A stretch of DNA of 60,258 nt from contig JAQGIE010000067.1 of the NCBI GenBank assembly GCA_028291365.1, positions 1 through 60,258 of the forward strand. The letters run 5' to 3'. The notes below the pieces were generated by a model that saw nothing but the letters and a program-made list of their open reading frames with translations, was not told the DNA's origin and did no database searches. Below, in pieces: positions 37,655 through 46,980 of this stretch (position 1 is the first letter of the stretch; every line of letters starts with the position of its first letter). Source of the stretch: Rhodospirillales bacterium. GTDB taxonomy: Bacteria; Pseudomonadota; Alphaproteobacteria; BOG-932; Roseiterribacteraceae. Position numbers and translations under genes: made by a program.

Positions 37655-38383
37655 TCATGGCCGCATCCTGACCCAGTTCCGGCACGACGCCGCCCAAGGC
37701 CGCAGCTCAAGTTCGTAGCCGAGCGAAGTCAGCAGCGACCAGGCCAGGCAGAGATTCGACGACAGCACCGGCTTCGACGCGGCAACCATCGACATGGCGT
37801 GCAGGGTCGGCATGCCGGTTCCGGTCATCAGCACCCCTTCGCCCGGCATCGCGCAGGCACGCGACAGCGCGTCAGCGACCGCATCGTCAGCGAGGTCGAA
37901 GATGGGATGGCGACGCGCCGTCGGCACGTTGCACGTCGACAACGCCGGCAACCTCGATGCCGACCGCATCCCAATACGCAAGCGCCAGCGCCACCAGCTC
38001 GGCCGGATACGGATTCACCAGCACGATGCGCTTCATCTGCAACACTGCGAATGCCGCGCGGGTCGCGAAGGTCGACGTCACGACGCGCTGGCGCGCGCAC
38101 AGCTCGGTTTCGGCCTCGACCCCCAGCAGATAGCTGGTGCCGGTGCAGGCAAAGCCGATCACATCCAGCGGCAGCCGCCGAACGTCGCAACCGATGGTTC
38201 GATCCGGTTCGCGTAATCGAGCAGGCGGTCGAGCATGGTCGGCGCATCGCTGCACAAGCGTGCGGTGACCATCACCGCATCGTCGCCCAGCATCCGCACC
38301 ATCTCGGGCTCGACGGTTGGATTGCCTGACGGCGTCAGAATGCCGACGATGCCGCGCCGCGGCCGCGCTCCGTCCGACTCCAT
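37655..38383 (-). pseudogene. Frameshifted Asp/Glu racemase-superfamily gene (maleate isomerase/AMDase-like)
   Basis: Three reading-frame pieces together match the intact homologue at 46276-46980 from end to end. Piece 1 reads GIVGILTPSGNPTVEPEMVR to FGG; near 38170-38178 one base is missing, and the next piece continues LPLDVIGFACTGTSYLLG to VVDVQRADGA; near 37911-37925 a compensating shift restores the first frame at RRHPIFDLADDAV to the end (KPVLSSNLCLAWSLL). The first active-site Cys (FACTG) is kept, but the second, Cys in LCSGTG of the homologue, is Met (LMTGTG). Inactive gene most likely; two sequencing errors are an alternative. Confidence 0.8.
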
Positions 38384-38517
38384 TGCGCTCGAATTCCTCG
38401 TTGTCAGCGGGTCCCAGCGAAGACCCGAAAGCGACCGGCTTCCTGGCAGACCACCCGCCGCCAAACAAGGTGGAGCTGGGCCGCGGACCCCGGCGACCGG
38501 ACTGGCCTGCGCCTTCT

Positions 38518-38531
38518 TGGGACCGGTGTCA
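38518..38531 (+). promoter_or_regulatory. LacI-like operator, upstream copy
   Basis: TGGGACCGGTGTCA. The right half GGTGTCA is identical to the inverted half of the downstream site; the left half has two mismatches. Central CG as in LacI-family operators. Confidence 0.45.
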
Positions 38532-38610
38532 TTTTGGCTTGACGGGCTGCGTCCGAATAGCGCAAGGAGGCAGGATCAAACACGGCGACTGGCCGTTCTC
38601 CGAGGCCGGA

Positions 38611-38624
38611 TGACACCGGTATCA
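38611..38624 (+). promoter_or_regulatory. LacI-like operator, downstream copy
   Basis: TGACACCGGTATCA, a palindrome with one mismatched pair and a central CG, 70 bases before the receptor start. Its centre is 93 bases from the upstream copy, close to nine helical turns. Confidence 0.55.
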
Positions 38625-38694
38625 GGCGAGCGGCGAAGGCCGGGCCGCGGACACGCAACGATCCGCGGTGAAGAACACAGGGAGCAGAGACGCT

Positions 38695-41148
38695 ATGGGA
38701 AATGTGCAAACTGCCCGCCGACCCCGCTTGGGTCGCGTGCCAGCGACCGTGTCCGCCGTCGCCGCGTTGCTGCTGCTGCTGGCGGCGCCCGCCCAGGCGC
38801 AGCTCGAAGAAATCACCGTCACCGCCAACAAGCGCACCGAGCGCGTCCAGGAAGTGCCGGTTGCGATCTCGGTCGTCACGCCGGAGGCGATGGAGCGCGC
38901 CAACGTGCGCAGCTTCGACGATCTGGTGAAGCTGGCGCCGTCACTGACCATCACCAAGACGACGCAACCCGCGAACAACTCGATCAACATCCGCGGTATC
39001 GGCACCTACTCCTTCTCGATCGCCACCGAGTCGAGCGTAGCGGTGGTGATCGACGAAGTGCCGCAGGCCTTCCAGTCCGCCGCCTTCACTGATCTGGTCG
39101 ACGTACAGCGCATCGAAGTGCTGCGCGGCCCGCAGAGCACGCTGTTCGGCAAGAGCGCCTCGGCCGGCGTGATCAGCATCACGACGCGCCAGCCGACCGA
39201 CACGTTCACGGCACGGGCCGAAACGATGTTCACCGACGACAATGAACAGCGTCTCAGCGCCACGGTCTCGGGACCGCTTGCGGACAAGCTGAAATTCCGC
39301 CTGACCGGCTCGTACAGCCACCAGGAAGGCCAACTCGAGAACCTCTCGGATGGATCACATCTGAACGGCAATCGCGACCAGACGATTCGCGGCAAGCTGG
39401 TGTGGACGCCGGCCGACAATTGGGACGTCACCTTCTCGCCCTACTACAATCACACCTGGAACACGTGCTGTGCCGCGGCGCCACTCAACATCACGCCCGG
39501 ACTCACGTTCGCGGGTCTGCGCACGCTGACACCGGCCACCGTCTTTCGCGGCGTCAATATCGGGCCGTCGAACACCCAGACGCGCATCGACGTGAACCCC
39601 GCCGGCAACTCGACCGATTGGGGCGGCTATCTGCGCGTGAACTACGCTTTCGACGGCTTCAGCCTGACCTCGCTGACCTCCTACGATCGATACCGTCTGC
39701 GCGATCTGCAGGACGTCGAAAACACCGACATCAATTTCGGCGACCCTGCCATCTATGCCGGCACGACGCTGGCACCCGATCCGCGCTGGAAGACCGGCGG
39801 CATCGCCGTCGGCGGCTGGTTCGACGTCAAGGCGTATACGCAGGAATTGCGTTTGACCTCGCCCGGCACCGGCCCGGTCAAATATGTCGCCGGCCTGTTC
39901 TATTCGAAGATCGACGGCGGCCGGTATTTCTATCGCGGTCCGAACTGGATCCCCGAGCACGACCCCAATCTCGCCAACTATTCGACGCTGGTGCGCGCGA
40001 CCCCGATCTCGACCTTCCCGGGCACGACCAACAATCCGCTCGGCAATTATCTCTCGACCTCGGGATCGACCTCCTACGCCGCCTTCGGCAATGCCACCTG
40101 GGAGATCCTGCCGGGGCTGAACCTGATCGGCGGACTTCGCGTCAATCGCGAAGACATCGACTACGCCTTCTATGATTACACCTGCACGATCGCGGCCTGC
40201 CTCACAGCTGCGGGTGCAACGCCGGTCGGCCGTCCCAACAGCCCGGCCAACAATATCCGCGCGGTTTACACCGGTTCGAACGGCGAGACGGCGGTCACCT
40301 ACAAGGCCGGCATCCAATATCAATGGACGCCCGACATCATGACCTTCGCGACCTATTCGCGCGCCTATAAAGGGCAGACCTACGACCTCACCAGCAGCTT
40401 CACCGTCGGCATCGCGGCGACACAGCCGGTCAAAGCCGAATGGGGCGATAATTACGAAGTCGGCATCAAGACCGCGCTGTTCAACAAGCGGCTGATCTTC
40501 AACCTGACCGGCTTCTACGAAGTCTTCACCGACTTCCAGGCGCAGACGCGCGACGTGCCCAACAGCATCAACATCCTGGCCAATGTCGGCAAAGTGACCA
40601 GCAAGGGCGTCGAGCTGGAGAGCACGTTCCAGCCGATGCGCGACTTCACCTTGAGCGTCGCCGGTGCCTACACCGACGCCAAGGTCAACAGCTTCCCCAA
40701 CGCAACCTGCTACGCGTTGCAGACCGTGGCCGAGGGCTGCATCAACAACCGCCAGGACCTGGCCGGCAAACCGCTCAACAACGTTCCCAAATGGAACTTC
40801 AACGTCGTCGGCCAGTACGACATTCCGCTGAACGGCCTGGCCTTCGATGCCTTCGTCGCGGCTGCGTATAAATGGCAGTCGAAAGTCATCTATTCGCTGC
40901 AGCAGGATCCCGACTCGATCCAGGACGCCTATGGCATCGTCAATCTGTCGGGCGGCATCGAAGACAAGAACGGCCGGTACAGGCTGACGCTGTTCGCCAA
41001 CAACCTGTTCGACAAGAACTACTTTCTGACGCGCGGCCGCGACACGGCCTACTGGCGCGCGGTCGCGGGCGCCAGCACCGCGGTGACGGGCAAGCCGGCG
41101 CGTGACTTCTCGCGTTATGTCGGCGTGCGTGCAAGCGTGAATTACTGA
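38695..41148 (+). CDS. TonB-dependent outer-membrane receptor
   Basis: 817 residues. Signal peptide ends near APAQAQ (residue about 38); the mature protein begins LEEITVTANKRTERVQEVPV, a TonB-box/plug start, with plug motifs NSINIRGIG and VDVQRIEVLRGPQSTLFGKSA, then a long 22-strand barrel with aromatic strand ends and terminal Tyr. Of the large oligotroph-type family whose substrates range from glycans to siderophores. The ATG after GGGAG was chosen over an earlier GTG. Two LacI-like operators in front suggest a sugar-responsive repressor, and a secreted protein gene follows. Confidence 0.95.
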   Translation: MGNVQTARRPRLGRVPATVSAVAALLLLLAAPAQAQLEEITVTANKRTERVQEVPVAISVVTPEAMERANVRSFDDLVKLAPSLTITKTTQPANNSINIRGIGTYSFSIATESSVAVVIDEVPQAFQSAAFTDLVDVQRIEVLRGPQSTLFGKSASAGVISITTRQPTDTFTARAETMFTDDNEQRLSATVSGPLADKLKFRLTGSYSHQEGQLENLSDGSHLNGNRDQTIRGKLVWTPADNWDVTFSPYYNHTWNTCCAAAPLNITPGLTFAGLRTLTPATVFRGVNIGPSNTQTRIDVNPAGNSTDWGGYLRVNYAFDGFSLTSLTSYDRYRLRDLQDVENTDINFGDPAIYAGTTLAPDPRWKTGGIAVGGWFDVKAYTQELRLTSPGTGPVKYVAGLFYSKIDGGRYFYRGPNWIPEHDPNLANYSTLVRATPISTFPGTTNNPLGNYLSTSGSTSYAAFGNATWEILPGLNLIGGLRVNREDIDYAFYDYTCTIAACLTAAGATPVGRPNSPANNIRAVYTGSNGETAVTYKAGIQYQWTPDIMTFATYSRAYKGQTYDLTSSFTVGIAATQPVKAEWGDNYEVGIKTALFNKRLIFNLTGFYEVFTDFQAQTRDVPNSINILANVGKVTSKGVELESTFQPMRDFTLSVAGAYTDAKVNSFPNATCYALQTVAEGCINNRQDLAGKPLNNVPKWNFNVVGQYDIPLNGLAFDAFVAAAYKWQSKVIYSLQQDPDSIQDAYGIVNLSGGIEDKNGRYRLTLFANNLFDKNYFLTRGRDTAYWRAVAGASTAVTGKPARDFSRYVGVRASVNY

Positions 41149-41162
41149 GCCTCCTCCTACTT

Positions 41163-41190
41163 GCCCGCATCGTCGCAGGACGGTGCGGGC
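41163..41190 (+). terminator. Hairpin between the receptor and the 609-residue secreted protein gene
   Basis: GCCCGCA ... TGCGGGC arms with inner GTC/GAC pairing, followed by GAGGATTTTT directly before the next start codon. It may attenuate rather than end transcription, because the T-run also spaces the downstream Shine-Dalgarno (GAGGA). Confidence 0.5.
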
Positions 41191-41201
41191 GAGGATTTTT
41201 C

Positions 41202-43031
41202 ATGCGCAAGCACCTCATCCTGTTCACCGCTTCGCTTCTGTCGCTGCCCGCCGCCGGGCTGGCGACCGAACCACCGCCGATGAACAGCGTGATCGAGCAG
41301 CGAATCCTGCCCGATCTAGACGCTCTGTTCCGCAAGATCGTCGCCGAGAAGCGCGACACGACGCTCGACGGCGTGCGCGTCTTCACCGGCGAGGACAGGT
41401 TCCTGCCGGGCAAGGTCGCGATCGGCGTCGCCCATCTGATCCTGCACACCAACGCGGACGATCCCAGGCGCGAAATCTATCTCGCCGGCTTCCGCCAGAT
41501 CGCCGACATGACGGTCGACGATCCCAACGACAGCTGGGGCATCTACTATTATGTGCTGGCGCTGCAGAAGCTGAACGCGGCCGGCCTGCTCGATCGCGCC
41601 GTCGCGCCCGCGACGCTGCAGAAGCTGCGCGCCAATCTCGACTGGCGACGTTTCGTACGCACCGACGACTTCACGCTGATCGACCTGCCCAACAACTATT
41701 ACGGTGTCTCGTTCGGCATCGCGCGCCAGCGCGCAATGCTGGGGTGGGAAGATTTGAGCGGCAGTGAAACCTTGCTGCGCAAGGCGTTCGATCACTACCG
41801 CCGATATTCGGGACAGTTCGGTTTCGCCGACGAGACCGCCGGCGAGGGCCGGTTCGACCGCTACAGCGTCCTGCTCGCAGGCGAGATCGCGCAACGCATG
41901 CTGGAATCCGGCATGGCACCGCCCGACGAAGTGAAGACGTGGCTGCGCAAGTCGGTCGACCTGTTGTTGCCGCGATTCAACGAGCAAGGGACCGGCTTCG
42001 AATATGGACGCAGCATTGGCGTCTATGGCGAAACCGCGTTTCTCGAAGTCTTCGTCGTCGCGGCCAAGCTCGGCGTGCTGACGGCGCAGGAACGCGACAT
42101 GGCGTACGCCTTCGCGTCGCGCATCGCCAGGCGCTACGCCGATTTCTGGTACGACCCCGAGATCGCGTCGGTGAATCTGTGGAGCCGCGGCCGCCGCACC
42201 GACGGTTATCGGGGCCGCAAGCGTATCCTGGGCGAAAATCTCAGCCTCTCGCACCAGTACATCTATACCGACGAGATCTGGAACGAGCTCGGCTATCGCG
42301 ATCGCACGCCGAGCCCCGACTTCACGCGCTGGCTCGACACATTGCCAAAACGCACCGCGACCTGGTTCCAGCGCGGCACCTACGACCGGCTGGTCGTCAC
42401 CATTCGCGATCGCGGTCACGTAATCGGCCTGCCCTTGATCAATGGCGGGCCGGATCAGCATCGCAACAGCCCCTACTACCCGGTGCCGTTTGCCACCGGC
42501 ATGTTGGCGGGCATCGCCGACGGGCGCGTTCCCTTGCTGGTGCCGCGTTTCACGCTGGCCGACGGATCGGAACTCCTTCCCGTCGCCTTCATGCGCGACG
42601 CGAAGGTCGAGCAGCGCGGCGAAAAGCTGATTGTCAGCTACCGCCAGCACGGCCTTGACCGCATCAACGAGGCGACGCCCAAAGAAGACCCGCGCATCGA
42701 GCTGCGCACGACCTATACGTTCGAACCCGGCAGGATCACGCGCGAAGACGAGTATCGCGCGCCGCAGCCGGTGGCGCTCGCCAATGTCCGGATGGAATTC
42801 GCCGGCTACGCCTCCGGTGCGACCGCGAAAGGCACCACCATCCGCTTTCCGACCGGTGACGTGCGCAGCCTCGAGGTCACGGGCGTCGGCGACTGCCGCG
42901 TCGAGGATTCAAGCAACGATCCGCTCTACCGTGCACCGGACGGCCAGCTGAACAGTCGCGCCGTTTGCGAAACGGGCTCGTGGACGCTCGACGGCGCGCG
43001 CCGGATACGCTGGGTGCTGACCTATCGCTAA
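41202..43031 (+). CDS. Secreted protein of unknown function, toroid plus beta-sandwich look
   Basis: 609 residues. Signal peptide MRKHLILFTASLLSLPAAG. The first 330 residues are helical with repeated aromatic segments (WGIYYYVLALQKLN, DLPNNYYGVSFGIARQRAML, GTGFEYGRSIGVYGETAFLE), as in alpha/alpha-toroid polysaccharide lyases and glycoside hydrolases; the last 250 are beta-rich (LPLINGGPDQHRNSPYYPVP, IELRTTYTFEPGRITRED). I do not recognise the family. Neighbourhood (TonB receptor 53 bases upstream with LacI-like operators) suggests a glycan-degrading or binding role; this is inference. Its stop TAA overlaps the stop of the methyltransferase on the other strand. Confidence 0.7.
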   Translation: MRKHLILFTASLLSLPAAGLATEPPPMNSVIEQRILPDLDALFRKIVAEKRDTTLDGVRVFTGEDRFLPGKVAIGVAHLILHTNADDPRREIYLAGFRQIADMTVDDPNDSWGIYYYVLALQKLNAAGLLDRAVAPATLQKLRANLDWRRFVRTDDFTLIDLPNNYYGVSFGIARQRAMLGWEDLSGSETLLRKAFDHYRRYSGQFGFADETAGEGRFDRYSVLLAGEIAQRMLESGMAPPDEVKTWLRKSVDLLLPRFNEQGTGFEYGRSIGVYGETAFLEVFVVAAKLGVLTAQERDMAYAFASRIARRYADFWYDPEIASVNLWSRGRRTDGYRGRKRILGENLSLSHQYIYTDEIWNELGYRDRTPSPDFTRWLDTLPKRTATWFQRGTYDRLVVTIRDRGHVIGLPLINGGPDQHRNSPYYPVPFATGMLAGIADGRVPLLVPRFTLADGSELLPVAFMRDAKVEQRGEKLIVSYRQHGLDRINEATPKEDPRIELRTTYTFEPGRITREDEYRAPQPVALANVRMEFAGYASGATAKGTTIRFPTGDVRSLEVTGVGDCRVEDSSNDPLYRAPDGQLNSRAVCETGSWTLDGARRIRWVLTYR

Positions 43032-43918
43032 AGCGGCAGCGAAACCTGCGCCACGCGAAGCGGTGCGGTCGGTTGCTCGGCAAGACCCGGCGTCAGATAG
43101 AGACTCTCGACCGTGTCTTCGGTGCGCCCGTTGAGCGTCGCCTGGCTCGAACGCCCCGCAGGCAGCAGATGCTGGGTCAGCTTGAGTTCCGCCGGCAGCG
43201 GCGGCCCGTAGCTGCGCTCGCCCGACAGACCGTCATAGGACAAGGCAAAGCGCAGCCGCCGCGCATTGAGCGCATGCAGCCCGTCAATCAGCATGTCGCG
43301 GGCGAGCCCGTCGGCGTAGCGGCGGTCGCGTCCGGTCGACGTGCCGTGATAGGGCGGATCGAGATAGATGAAATCGTCGGGCCCGGCATCGTGCAGTGAA
43401 GCGAGCCAATCGCCCGAACGCAATTCGGTGCGGCCCTTCAGCAAGGCAGACGCGCCCGTCACCGCGTCGCGCATCTTGTCGGGCCGCATGCCGAGGCGGC
43501 GCTTGTCGACCGATTGCGTGAACTGTCCGCGCGCATTGAAACGCACCGCGTTCTTCACGCAACGGCACAGCAGATAGAGCAGATCGACCGGATCGCCCCC
43601 GGCGTTGAAGCGCTCGCGGACGCGATTGAAATAATCGGGGTCGTCGGCCGCCTGCCCGCTCCAGATCGTCTGGTACCGGTCGGCGAGGTCGAACGGCCGT
43701 TCGATGATCTCCACCCAGAGGCGCGTCAGCGGTTCGAGCACGTCGCAGAGCACGATGCGCCGAGGCGACCGGTGGCGCGCCGCCCACAGCGACATCGCGG
43801 CCGAGCCGGCAAAGGGTTCGAACCAGGTCTCGATCTCGTCGGGGACAAAGCGGCTGATCCGCGCCGCCAGCGCGCGCTTGCTGCCCTGATACGGGATCGG
43901 ATGCGGAAGCGTCGTCAT
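43028..43918 (-). CDS. D12-class N6-adenine DNA methyltransferase (Dam-like), orphan
   Basis: 296 residues. Order of motifs is that of the Dam/DpnII class: X HPIPYQGSKRALAARIS, I TWFEPFAGSAAMSLWAA, catalytic IV FIYLDPPYHGTSTGRDRR, with RRIVLCDVLEPLTRLW and NAVRFNARGQFTQSVDK in the target-recognition part. It methylates adenine in a short DNA target not predictable here. No restriction endonuclease gene is adjacent, and alphaproteobacteria usually rely on CcrM, so this may be an orphan or degraded-system enzyme. Stops face to face with the preceding gene. Confidence 0.9.
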   Translation of the reverse strand: MTTLPHPIPYQGSKRALAARISRFVPDEIETWFEPFAGSAAMSLWAARHRSPRRIVLCDVLEPLTRLWVEIIERPFDLADRYQTIWSGQAADDPDYFNRVRERFNAGGDPVDLLYLLCRCVKNAVRFNARGQFTQSVDKRRLGMRPDKMRDAVTGASALLKGRTELRSGDWLASLHDAGPDDFIYLDPPYHGTSTGRDRRYADGLARDMLIDGLHALNARRLRFALSYDGLSGERSYGPPLPAELKLTQHLLPAGRSSQATLNGRTEDTVESLYLTPGLAEQPTAPLRVAQVSLPL

Positions 43919-43974
43919 CGGGCCCTGGCTATCAGGTTCGCCCGATTCGACGCCCGCCTTTTCCGCTCAGCTGG

Positions 43975-46275: not shown

Positions 46276-46980
46276 TCAGCGCCGGACGACGTCGCGGAGC
46301 CAGCGTCGCAGATCGAGATCTGCACCGAGCGCGTTCAAACTGCTCCAGGCGAGGCTCAAATTCGACGAAAGAACCGGCTTGTCCGCGCGTACCTGCCTGA
46401 TCGCGGACAGCGTCGCCATGCCGGTGCCGCTGCACAGCACGGCGTCGGCCGGAATCGCCATCGCGCGTTCCAGCGCCGTCACCGCCGAGTCCGCGGCGAT
46501 GCCATAGATCGGATGCCCGGCGGCCGCGCGTTCGACGTCGACCACCTCGACCACGTCAACGCCGGCGTGGTGCCAATAGCCGAGCGCAGCCGCCAGCACG
46601 TCCGGCGGGTAGGGATTGACCAGCGCGACCCGCCTGGCGCTGCAGGCGACCAACGCCTCGAGAATGGCGGCGGTCGCGGTCCGCATGCGCACGCCCTGGG
46701 CCTGCAGGCGTTCGACAAAGGCCCGCTCCTGCGCGATACCGTAGAGATAGAAGGTGCCGGTGCAGGCGAAGGCGAAGACGTCAATCTTCATGCCGCCGAA
46801 GCTGGCGATCCAGCGATCGGTGTCGTCGCCATAGGCACGCAGCCGGTCGAGCATCGAGGCGCCCGGATTGCACATGCGCGTCGTCAGCATCAGCGCGTCG
46901 TCGCCGAGCAGCCGCACCATCTCGGGCTCGACGGTGGGATTGGCCTGCGGCGTCAGGACGCCAACGACACCGCGCTGCAT
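46276..46980 (-). CDS. Asp/Glu racemase-superfamily enzyme (maleate isomerase/AMDase-like)
   Basis: 234 residues. The two catalytic Cys of the superfamily are both present: Cys73 in DVFAFACTGTFYLYG and Cys183 in DAVLCSGTGMATLSA. N-terminal VGVLTPQANPTVEPEMVRLL and C-terminal KPVLSSNLSLAWSSLNALG fit maleate isomerases and arylmalonate decarboxylase relatives. Two-Cys chemistry suggests isomerisation or racemisation rather than decarboxylation. It lies in the ABC transporter operon, 14 bases after the small coiled-coil gene. A frameshifted paralogue lies 8 kb away. Confidence 0.85.
   Translation of the reverse strand: MQRGVVGVLTPQANPTVEPEMVRLLGDDALMLTTRMCNPGASMLDRLRAYGDDTDRWIASFGGMKIDVFAFACTGTFYLYGIAQERAFVERLQAQGVRMRTATAAILEALVACSARRVALVNPYPPDVLAAALGYWHHAGVDVVEVVDVERAAAGHPIYGIAADSAVTALERAMAIPADAVLCSGTGMATLSAIRQVRADKPVLSSNLSLAWSSLNALGADLDLRRWLRDVVRR

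Follow-up and report, generated by a model that had tools for sequence, protein, structure and literature searches.

In this work we have analysed a stretch of 60,258 nucleotides of DNA from a Rhodospirillales bacterium, here called the window, and within it a gene for a protein of 609 amino acids, which is a member of a real, conserved family without a name. Judging from its predicted fold, its invariant residues and the uronate gene clusters around some of its relatives, the family probably carries out an elimination on uronic acids. That this elimination cleaves a chain, as in a lyase, is a matter on which we are evenly balanced. We likewise give about an even chance to the complete proposal, in which the window protein belongs to an unnamed family of secreted, two-domain enzymes that act as lyases on a glucuronan-type polymer, with the products imported by the TonB-dependent receptor encoded next to it. 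The features concerned are collected in Table 1.

Table 1. Features of the receptor and enzyme region in window coordinates
Feature	Position	Strand	Basis
Operator-like palindrome 1 (TGGGACCGGTGTCA)	38518..38531	+	2 mismatches to TGACACCGGTGTCA; G001 L027 7329-7342
Operator-like palindrome 2 (TGACACCGGTATCA)	38611..38624	+	1 mismatch to TGACACCGGTGTCA; G001 L027 7422-7435
TonB-dependent receptor	38668..41148 (start possibly 38695, the start of the G001 ortholog)	+	PF00593 8.4e-44, PF07715 6.3e-22
Terminator-like hairpin, 15-pair stem, T-run directly before the enzyme ATG	41160..41193	+	in the receptor-enzyme gap
Putative secreted enzyme, the window's family member	41202..43031	+	ORF, translation, G001 ortholog, alignment of 22 rows
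Signal peptide, residues 1-21 (MRKHLILFTASLLSLPAAGLA)	41202..41264	+	translation inspected by eye
Predicted helical alpha/alpha-toroid domain, about residues 24-378	41271..42335	+	AlphaFold2 models, fold searches
Predicted C-terminal beta domain, residues 384-609	42351..43028	+	secondary structure of AlphaFold2 model
K71, by-eye equivalent of BcGDH R78	41412..41414	+	invariant in 22/22 rows
N165-Y166, by-eye equivalent of N177-W178	41694..41699	+	invariant in 22/22; motif control
Y221, proposed catalytic base, by-eye equivalent of Y229	41862..41864	+	invariant in 22/22; motif control
R270, proposed carboxylate/oxyanion arginine, by-eye equivalent of R285	42009..42011	+	invariant in 22/22; motif control
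Y275, proposed catalytic acid, by-eye equivalent of Y289, shifted by one residue	42024..42026	+	invariant in 22/22; motif control
Y336, by-eye equivalent of Y354	42207..42209	+	invariant in 22/22 rows

The protein and its relatives

The first-pass annotation had described an unrecognised, secreted protein with a helical first part and a beta-rich second part, and this description has held up. Neither Pfam nor NCBIfam, searched up to E=10, offered a family for the protein, and no PDB sequence matched it by phmmer or by profile. The translation of the open reading frame, which starts with ATG, opens with what by eye is a signal peptide, and the AlphaFold2 model consists of helices until about residue 378 and of strands from 384 to 608. 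No lyase family in Pfam, NCBIfam or PDB was matched by sequence, and the Pfam models for GH154/DUF2264 (PF10022, up to E=10) and for GH88/GH105 (PF07470) matched neither the protein nor nine members of the family alignment. Across the whole of Pfam, the nine alignment members matched just two families, both taken for chance and each confined to a single member (E 0.066 and E 6), and NCBIfam had nothing for the relatives at loci L027, L005 and L006. One annotated record labels a family member as a hypothetical protein. A literature search at the level of titles and the openings of abstracts found no paper announcing such a family, and a search with the word DUF2264 found no paper.

An ortholog with 82-83% amino acid identity is present in another genome of the same genus (G001), where the block of DNA from 38514 to 43920 is kept with 83% identity. 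Over 608 codons the two copies of the enzyme gene differ at 72 first, 70 second and 223 third positions, which argues that the gene is under constraint at the protein level. The neighbouring gene for a D12-class adenine DNA methyltransferase (43028-43918, minus strand), convergent with the enzyme gene and overlapping it by 4 bases, is also kept in G001. More distant relatives occur in Caulobacter (loci L001 and L002, 56-58% identity), on an Asticcacaulis plasmid (L005, 48%) and on replicons of Burkholderia, Caballeronia and Paraburkholderia (36-38% when aligned, 33-34% by tblastn). Our alignment of 22 rows covers the genus of the window, Caulobacteraceae and Burkholderiaceae-type members, and may include several strains per species.

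The distribution of the family is rare and patchy. Searches of whole genomes, in sets which overlap and with the window's own genome counted, found it twice among 385 sampled genomes of the class (each time in the genus of the window), in 3 of 398 of the phylum and in 11 of 150 from the family of genome G677, the last with 13 matches because one genome, G789, has three. We take the family of G677 to be Burkholderiaceae since the neighbours at L028 and L029 resemble those at L006 and L007. Viral contigs contained 12 stretches that matched by pattern, none of which was confirmed, and the phages searched gave no match. The three copies in G789, a single contig of 2.25 Mb, lie at L025 8542-13278 and L026 10145-12319, two of them in tandem, and ORFs which by eye look like peptide synthetases are close by; in its size and the 44-49% G+C of these loci this genome is reminiscent of the endofungal Mycoavidus. 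A lipobox-like sequence (VSAC, LSAC or VTAC) stands near the start of the frame in 10 of the 17 Burkholderiaceae-type rows (L006-L008, L012 and L014-L019), and these ten members may be lipoproteins; none of the five alphaproteobacterial rows matched this pattern. L012 and L021 read RYDRYS where the others read RFDRYS.

Predicted fold

The AlphaFold2 model of the whole protein, computed from an input of only three sequences, reached a mean pLDDT of 64.9 and a pTM of 0.55, and the helical domain alone 68.4 and 0.74. A Foldseek search of the PDB with the whole model gave 62 hits with E values of 0.001 or lower, headed by an alginate lyase (1.3e-9). Among the best 50 of these 62 are 44 polysaccharide lyases, with TM-scores of 0.22-0.49, one dermatan sulfate epimerase and five GH154 chains. 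This backs the earlier suggestion of a toroid-plus-beta layout common to alpha/alpha-toroid lyases; the prediction gives a fold related to lyases, and no library searched (Pfam, NCBIfam, PDB) assigns the family. With the helical domain alone no match was found at E<=0.001. Its five nearest entries were all GH154 chains (E 4.4e-3 to 2.0e-2; for the first, probability 1.00 and TM 0.53), followed by a GH105 hydrolase (2.3e-2). VIA-align gave Z-scores with GH154 of 16.7 for the whole model and 13.9 for the domain, tied with other toroids, from which GH154 was not separated: sugar 2-epimerases came first and unsaturated glucuronyl hydrolases were tied. Polysaccharide lyases were absent from the best 50 rows for the whole model and had four entries among the rows listed for the domain, a difference to which we attach no meaning. 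With modest confidence we assign the predicted fold to the class of an alpha/alpha toroid followed by a C-terminal beta domain, related to lyases.

Could the protein catalyse some other reaction of (alpha/alpha)6-barrels on uronic-acid sugars, as a glycoside hydrolase, hydratase or epimerase? Such an activity would fit the VIA-align results, whose top rows include sugar 2-epimerases as well as unsaturated glucuronyl hydrolases, and also several acidic residues that are invariant in the 22 rows (D210, D219, E228, D334 and E345). However, the best 50 of the 62 Foldseek matches contain none of these barrel enzymes but polysaccharide lyases, GH154 chains and a single uronate epimerase, and the constellation of Tyr, Arg and Asn described below is that of GH154. 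We regard this as quite improbable.

Candidate active-site residues

For the residues we turned to BcGDH, an enzyme filed under GH154 and shown to be a glucuronate dehydratase (PMC12269599). According to that paper, alanine mutants of E74, R78, N176, N177, W178, F181, Y229, R285, Y289 and Y354 had no activity, with the authors' caution that the substrate was a poor one, on which even a minor impairment might pass for complete inactivity. Y229 was proposed as the base and Y289 as the acid: in the steps given there, the first tyrosine takes the C5 proton, an arginine stabilises the charge and the second tyrosine protonates O4, a chemistry which the authors liken to that of the alginate lyase Alg17C.

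We mapped these positions onto the family by eye, placing the PDB sequences through a DUF2264 protein at locus L052. The by-eye equivalents of the GH154 constellation (the NNW motif, Tyr229, Arg285, Tyr289 and Tyr354) are invariant, with two differences: the proposed acid tyrosine stands at R+5 and not at R+4, and the first asparagine of the motif, N164, is replaced by Q or K in 17 of the 22 rows (N 5, Q 15, K 2). BcGDH E74 has no clear equivalent in the family. The pattern N[WY]..DxY..GRS..Y was found in the window protein, in 31 of 31 family loci and in 10 of 10 DUF2264 proteins, and in no other of 834 open frames of at least 250 aa, searched with loose spacing in loci of which some contain the same DNA twice. 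Without the serine, one further frame matched, in L007. Since the pattern was chosen after the match had been seen, this control is a check on chance and no blind test. The first-pass annotation had looked to conserved clusters of Tyr, His or Arg on a model. The conservation stands, with invariance in 22 of 22 rows, but the surrounding stretches of the model (204-220, 261-275 and 317-342), which contain or adjoin Y221, R270, Y275 and Y336, have pLDDT below 50, and for this reason the geometry of the active site is beyond the model's reach.

Comparison of profiles did not turn the shared residues into a family relation. The family profile scored 16.7 against DUF2264, with a reversed decoy at 18.0, and 26.7 (E 0.035, reversed 19.8) against ten DUF2264 proteins, with the best stretch out of register; neither is significant, and the profiles are shallow (Neff 2.0 against 2.2 and 3.6). 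The ten proteins comprise four from genomes and six of the 25 plasmid records listed, and for the PF05426 profile 18 of 27 loci were supplied, of which a motif filter retained nine. No profile relation to DUF2264, PF05426, GH88 or two TonB receptors was convincing; the best scores of the first round were 30.4 for GH88 (E 0.016) and 30.1 for PF05426 (E 0.0093, hhalign), the latter in an implausible register.

The same residues raise the possibility that the protein is itself a glucuronate dehydratase, which would perform the same elimination on a saturated terminal glucuronic acid, with water leaving, and so prime the substrate for a GH88 hydrolase. BcGDH primes chondroitin fragments in this way. 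GH154 is, weakly, the nearest solved helical domain and has its residue constellation in common with the family; against this stand the proposed acid tyrosine at R+5 instead of R+4 and the absence of a PF10022 match. With the genomic evidence that follows, we consider a dehydratase doubtful, though a serious possibility.

Gene neighbourhoods

On the Asticcacaulis plasmid the family gene stands in the order PF05426 lyase, MFS, GH2, TonB receptor, PF05426 lyase, family gene, GH88, GH3, kduI, kduI. Caulobacter L001 has a TonB receptor, a PF05426 lyase, a GntR-FCD regulator, ManD, the family gene, MFS, GH43 and GH2; its ManD scores 730.2 bits against a cut-off of 550 and passes the D-galactonate dehydratase family model too (734.7 bits, cut-off 430). 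Caulobacter L002 has PF05426 and GH88 genes by family search, and ORFs which by eye resemble the regulator, ManD and MFS of L001. ManD acts in an established pathway from glucuronate, and KduI in one from unsaturated uronates. No uronate cluster surrounds the enzyme gene in the window, where seven neighbours were searched, and none was seen by eye in the ORF listings of G001, L006-L009, L025-L026 and L028-L031. PF05426 had no match in the window's genome or in G001; G751 and G675 match it elsewhere in the genome, and both Caulobacter carrier genomes have PF05426 and PF07470. A search with PF02278 (Lyase_8) gave no match anywhere, controls included, and is uninformative. On another contig of the window's genome, G000:C71:7926-8342 (L032), there is one match to PF07940 (heparinase II/III C-terminal, E 2.4e-41), so that the 609-residue protein is not this genome's sole possible lyase. 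The first-pass annotation had proposed a new or divergent glycan-active enzyme: the structure search and the uronate clusters of Caulobacter and Asticcacaulis speak for this, although the helical domain alone comes nearest to the GH154 dehydratases.

How do these neighbourhoods bear on a dehydratase? GH88 adjoins the family gene in Asticcacaulis and is nearby in Caulobacter L002, and a GH88 enzyme in glucuronan breakdown would leave saturated ends needing to be primed, following the logic of PMC12269599. However, PF07470 has no match in five of the seven carrier genomes tested, namely the window's own (G000), G001, G751, G675 and G789. A true DUF2264 protein directly follows a GH88 gene at L052, in the same genome (G885) as L002; this is the arrangement described for BcGDH.

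A uronate lyase with another polymer as its substrate, such as an alginate-like polymer, glucuronomannan, rhamnoglucuronan or a mixed glycan from fungi or plants, overlaps with our preferred reading and differs from it in the substrate. The toroid lyases matched by the model act on various uronate polymers, and the L001 cluster includes GH43 and GH2. ManD, an enzyme of the D-glucuronate route, nevertheless adjoins the gene in L001, with a like-looking ORF in the same place in L002, and we find a different polymer rather unlikely.

The receptor and the region upstream

The first-pass annotation had placed the gene downstream of a TonB receptor, and this is borne out by a gap of 53 bases and by the same gene order in G001, whose receptor is 90% identical. 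The window's receptor has 28% identity to the one at 17712-20276 in L001. With the other receptor of L001 (3103-5943; E 3e-4) and with that of L005 (best E 0.025) it aligns in no more than short, weak pieces. Since these other receptors align poorly with the window's, the pair of receptor and enzyme was observed in the window and in G001 alone.

Two palindromes precede the receptor, 93 bases apart, with identical spacing in G001. They are CG-centred palindromes, a kind associated with regulators of LacI type. The pattern TGACACCGGTGTCA was built from sites seen in the window itself, and two matches are at chance level (mean 1.90; 57 of 100 shuffles reach two), so that position and conservation are the sole evidence for operators. 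Of the earlier claim of sugar-type operators, the conserved spacing thus stands, but the number of matches is that expected by chance. G001 has a third match elsewhere, with 3 mismatches. We also considered shared regulation through these palindromes and discarded it: L001 has no match and L005 one with 3 mismatches, at chance level.

The hairpin in the gap is a strong one, with a fold z of -4.1 in the window and -7.0 in G001, and with an identical stem and a different loop. It would lower expression of the enzyme relative to the receptor, either by terminating the transcript or by masking the ribosome site. Genes resembling arylmalonate decarboxylase/EutA lie at 37658-38350 and 46276-46980, both on the minus strand, one near each TonB receptor. 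The former, recognised through its resemblance to a gene of G001, shifts its reading frame in the middle when compared with that intact copy, which is either decay or an error of the draft assembly. The TetR-like gene (by eye) which adjoins the EutA-like gene in G001 had no tblastn match in the window.

Proposed reaction

We infer a beta-elimination at C4-C5 of glucuronic acid, in which Y221 would take the C5 proton with the help of R270, N165 and its neighbours would hold the sugar, and Y275 would protonate the leaving O4. If this O4 bears a sugar, the result would be chain cleavage; if it bears a proton, dehydration. The leaving group would most likely be the next sugar, making the protein a lyase on a beta-1,4-GlcA polymer. 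Two points lead us to prefer cleavage: for the five carriers that gave no GH88/GH105 match, the known route would offer no way to use a dehydrated end, and the beta domain makes for a lyase-like, two-domain layout; glucuronan is suggested as the substrate by the ManD, KduI and PF05426 neighbours of the relatives. The products would be unsaturated uronic acids, which the adjacent TonB receptor may import, and the signal peptide together with this receptor suggests that the enzyme may act before uptake.

If true, this would provide a mechanism and a substrate for a family of hypothetical proteins, allow a direct test of how one and the same toroid active site switches between dehydration and chain cleavage and, with glucuronan as the substrate, add an enzyme for the polyglucuronate of fungi (Mucoromycota) and bacteria. 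A broader scenario, which we consider unlikely, is that the family is a lyase family which arose on the scaffold of the GH154 dehydratases. Its leaving group would have changed from water to sugar, and it would bridge the gap from dehydratases of terminal uronates to two-domain lyases. One of its members could be the glucuronan (cellouronate) lyase of exo type in Caulobacteraceae for which a gene is still lacking, and Burkholderiaceae, including the apparent endofungal lineage with three copies, could use it to breach the walls of Mucoromycota, which contain glucuronic acid.

Comparison with known enzymes

GH154/DUF2264 (PF10022) is exemplified by BcGDH of B. caccae (9o4u, 9nwf) and by 8OI4, deposited as a beta-galactosidase. 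The family resembles it in the fold of the helical domain, in the order and approximate spacing of the equivalents of N177-W178, Y229, R285, Y289 and Y354, and in the GH88 neighbours of some carriers. It differs in having no significant sequence or profile match, in its proposed acid tyrosine at R+5 and in the five of seven carriers tested without GH88. The construct of BcGDH comprises just the helical domain, in contrast to the two predicted domains of the window enzyme; BT3677 has a second domain (PMC12269599).

With the two-domain alpha/alpha-toroid polysaccharide lyases (PL8, PL12, PL15, PL17, PL21, PL33, PL35 and PL39) the window protein shares the predicted toroid and beta architecture, the signal peptide and, through its relatives, the uronate context. 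It differs from them in the absence of a sequence match and in its N/Q/K-N-Y motif, which stands instead of the Asn-His pair typical of PL5, PL15 and PL17 lyases. The PF05426 alginate and glucuronan lyases, presumably of PL5/PL38 type, are alike in the toroid fold (PL38 rows in the VIA-align search with the domain) and adjoin the family in Caulobacter and Asticcacaulis, whereas the window enzyme has no Pfam match. Lastly, Brevundimonas sp. SH203 has an exo-type cellouronate lyase, CUL-II, a second lyase beside CUL-I which acts on beta-1,4-glucuronan and for which no gene is named (PMC5477187). Its source belongs to the Caulobacteraceae, as do some carriers of the family described here.
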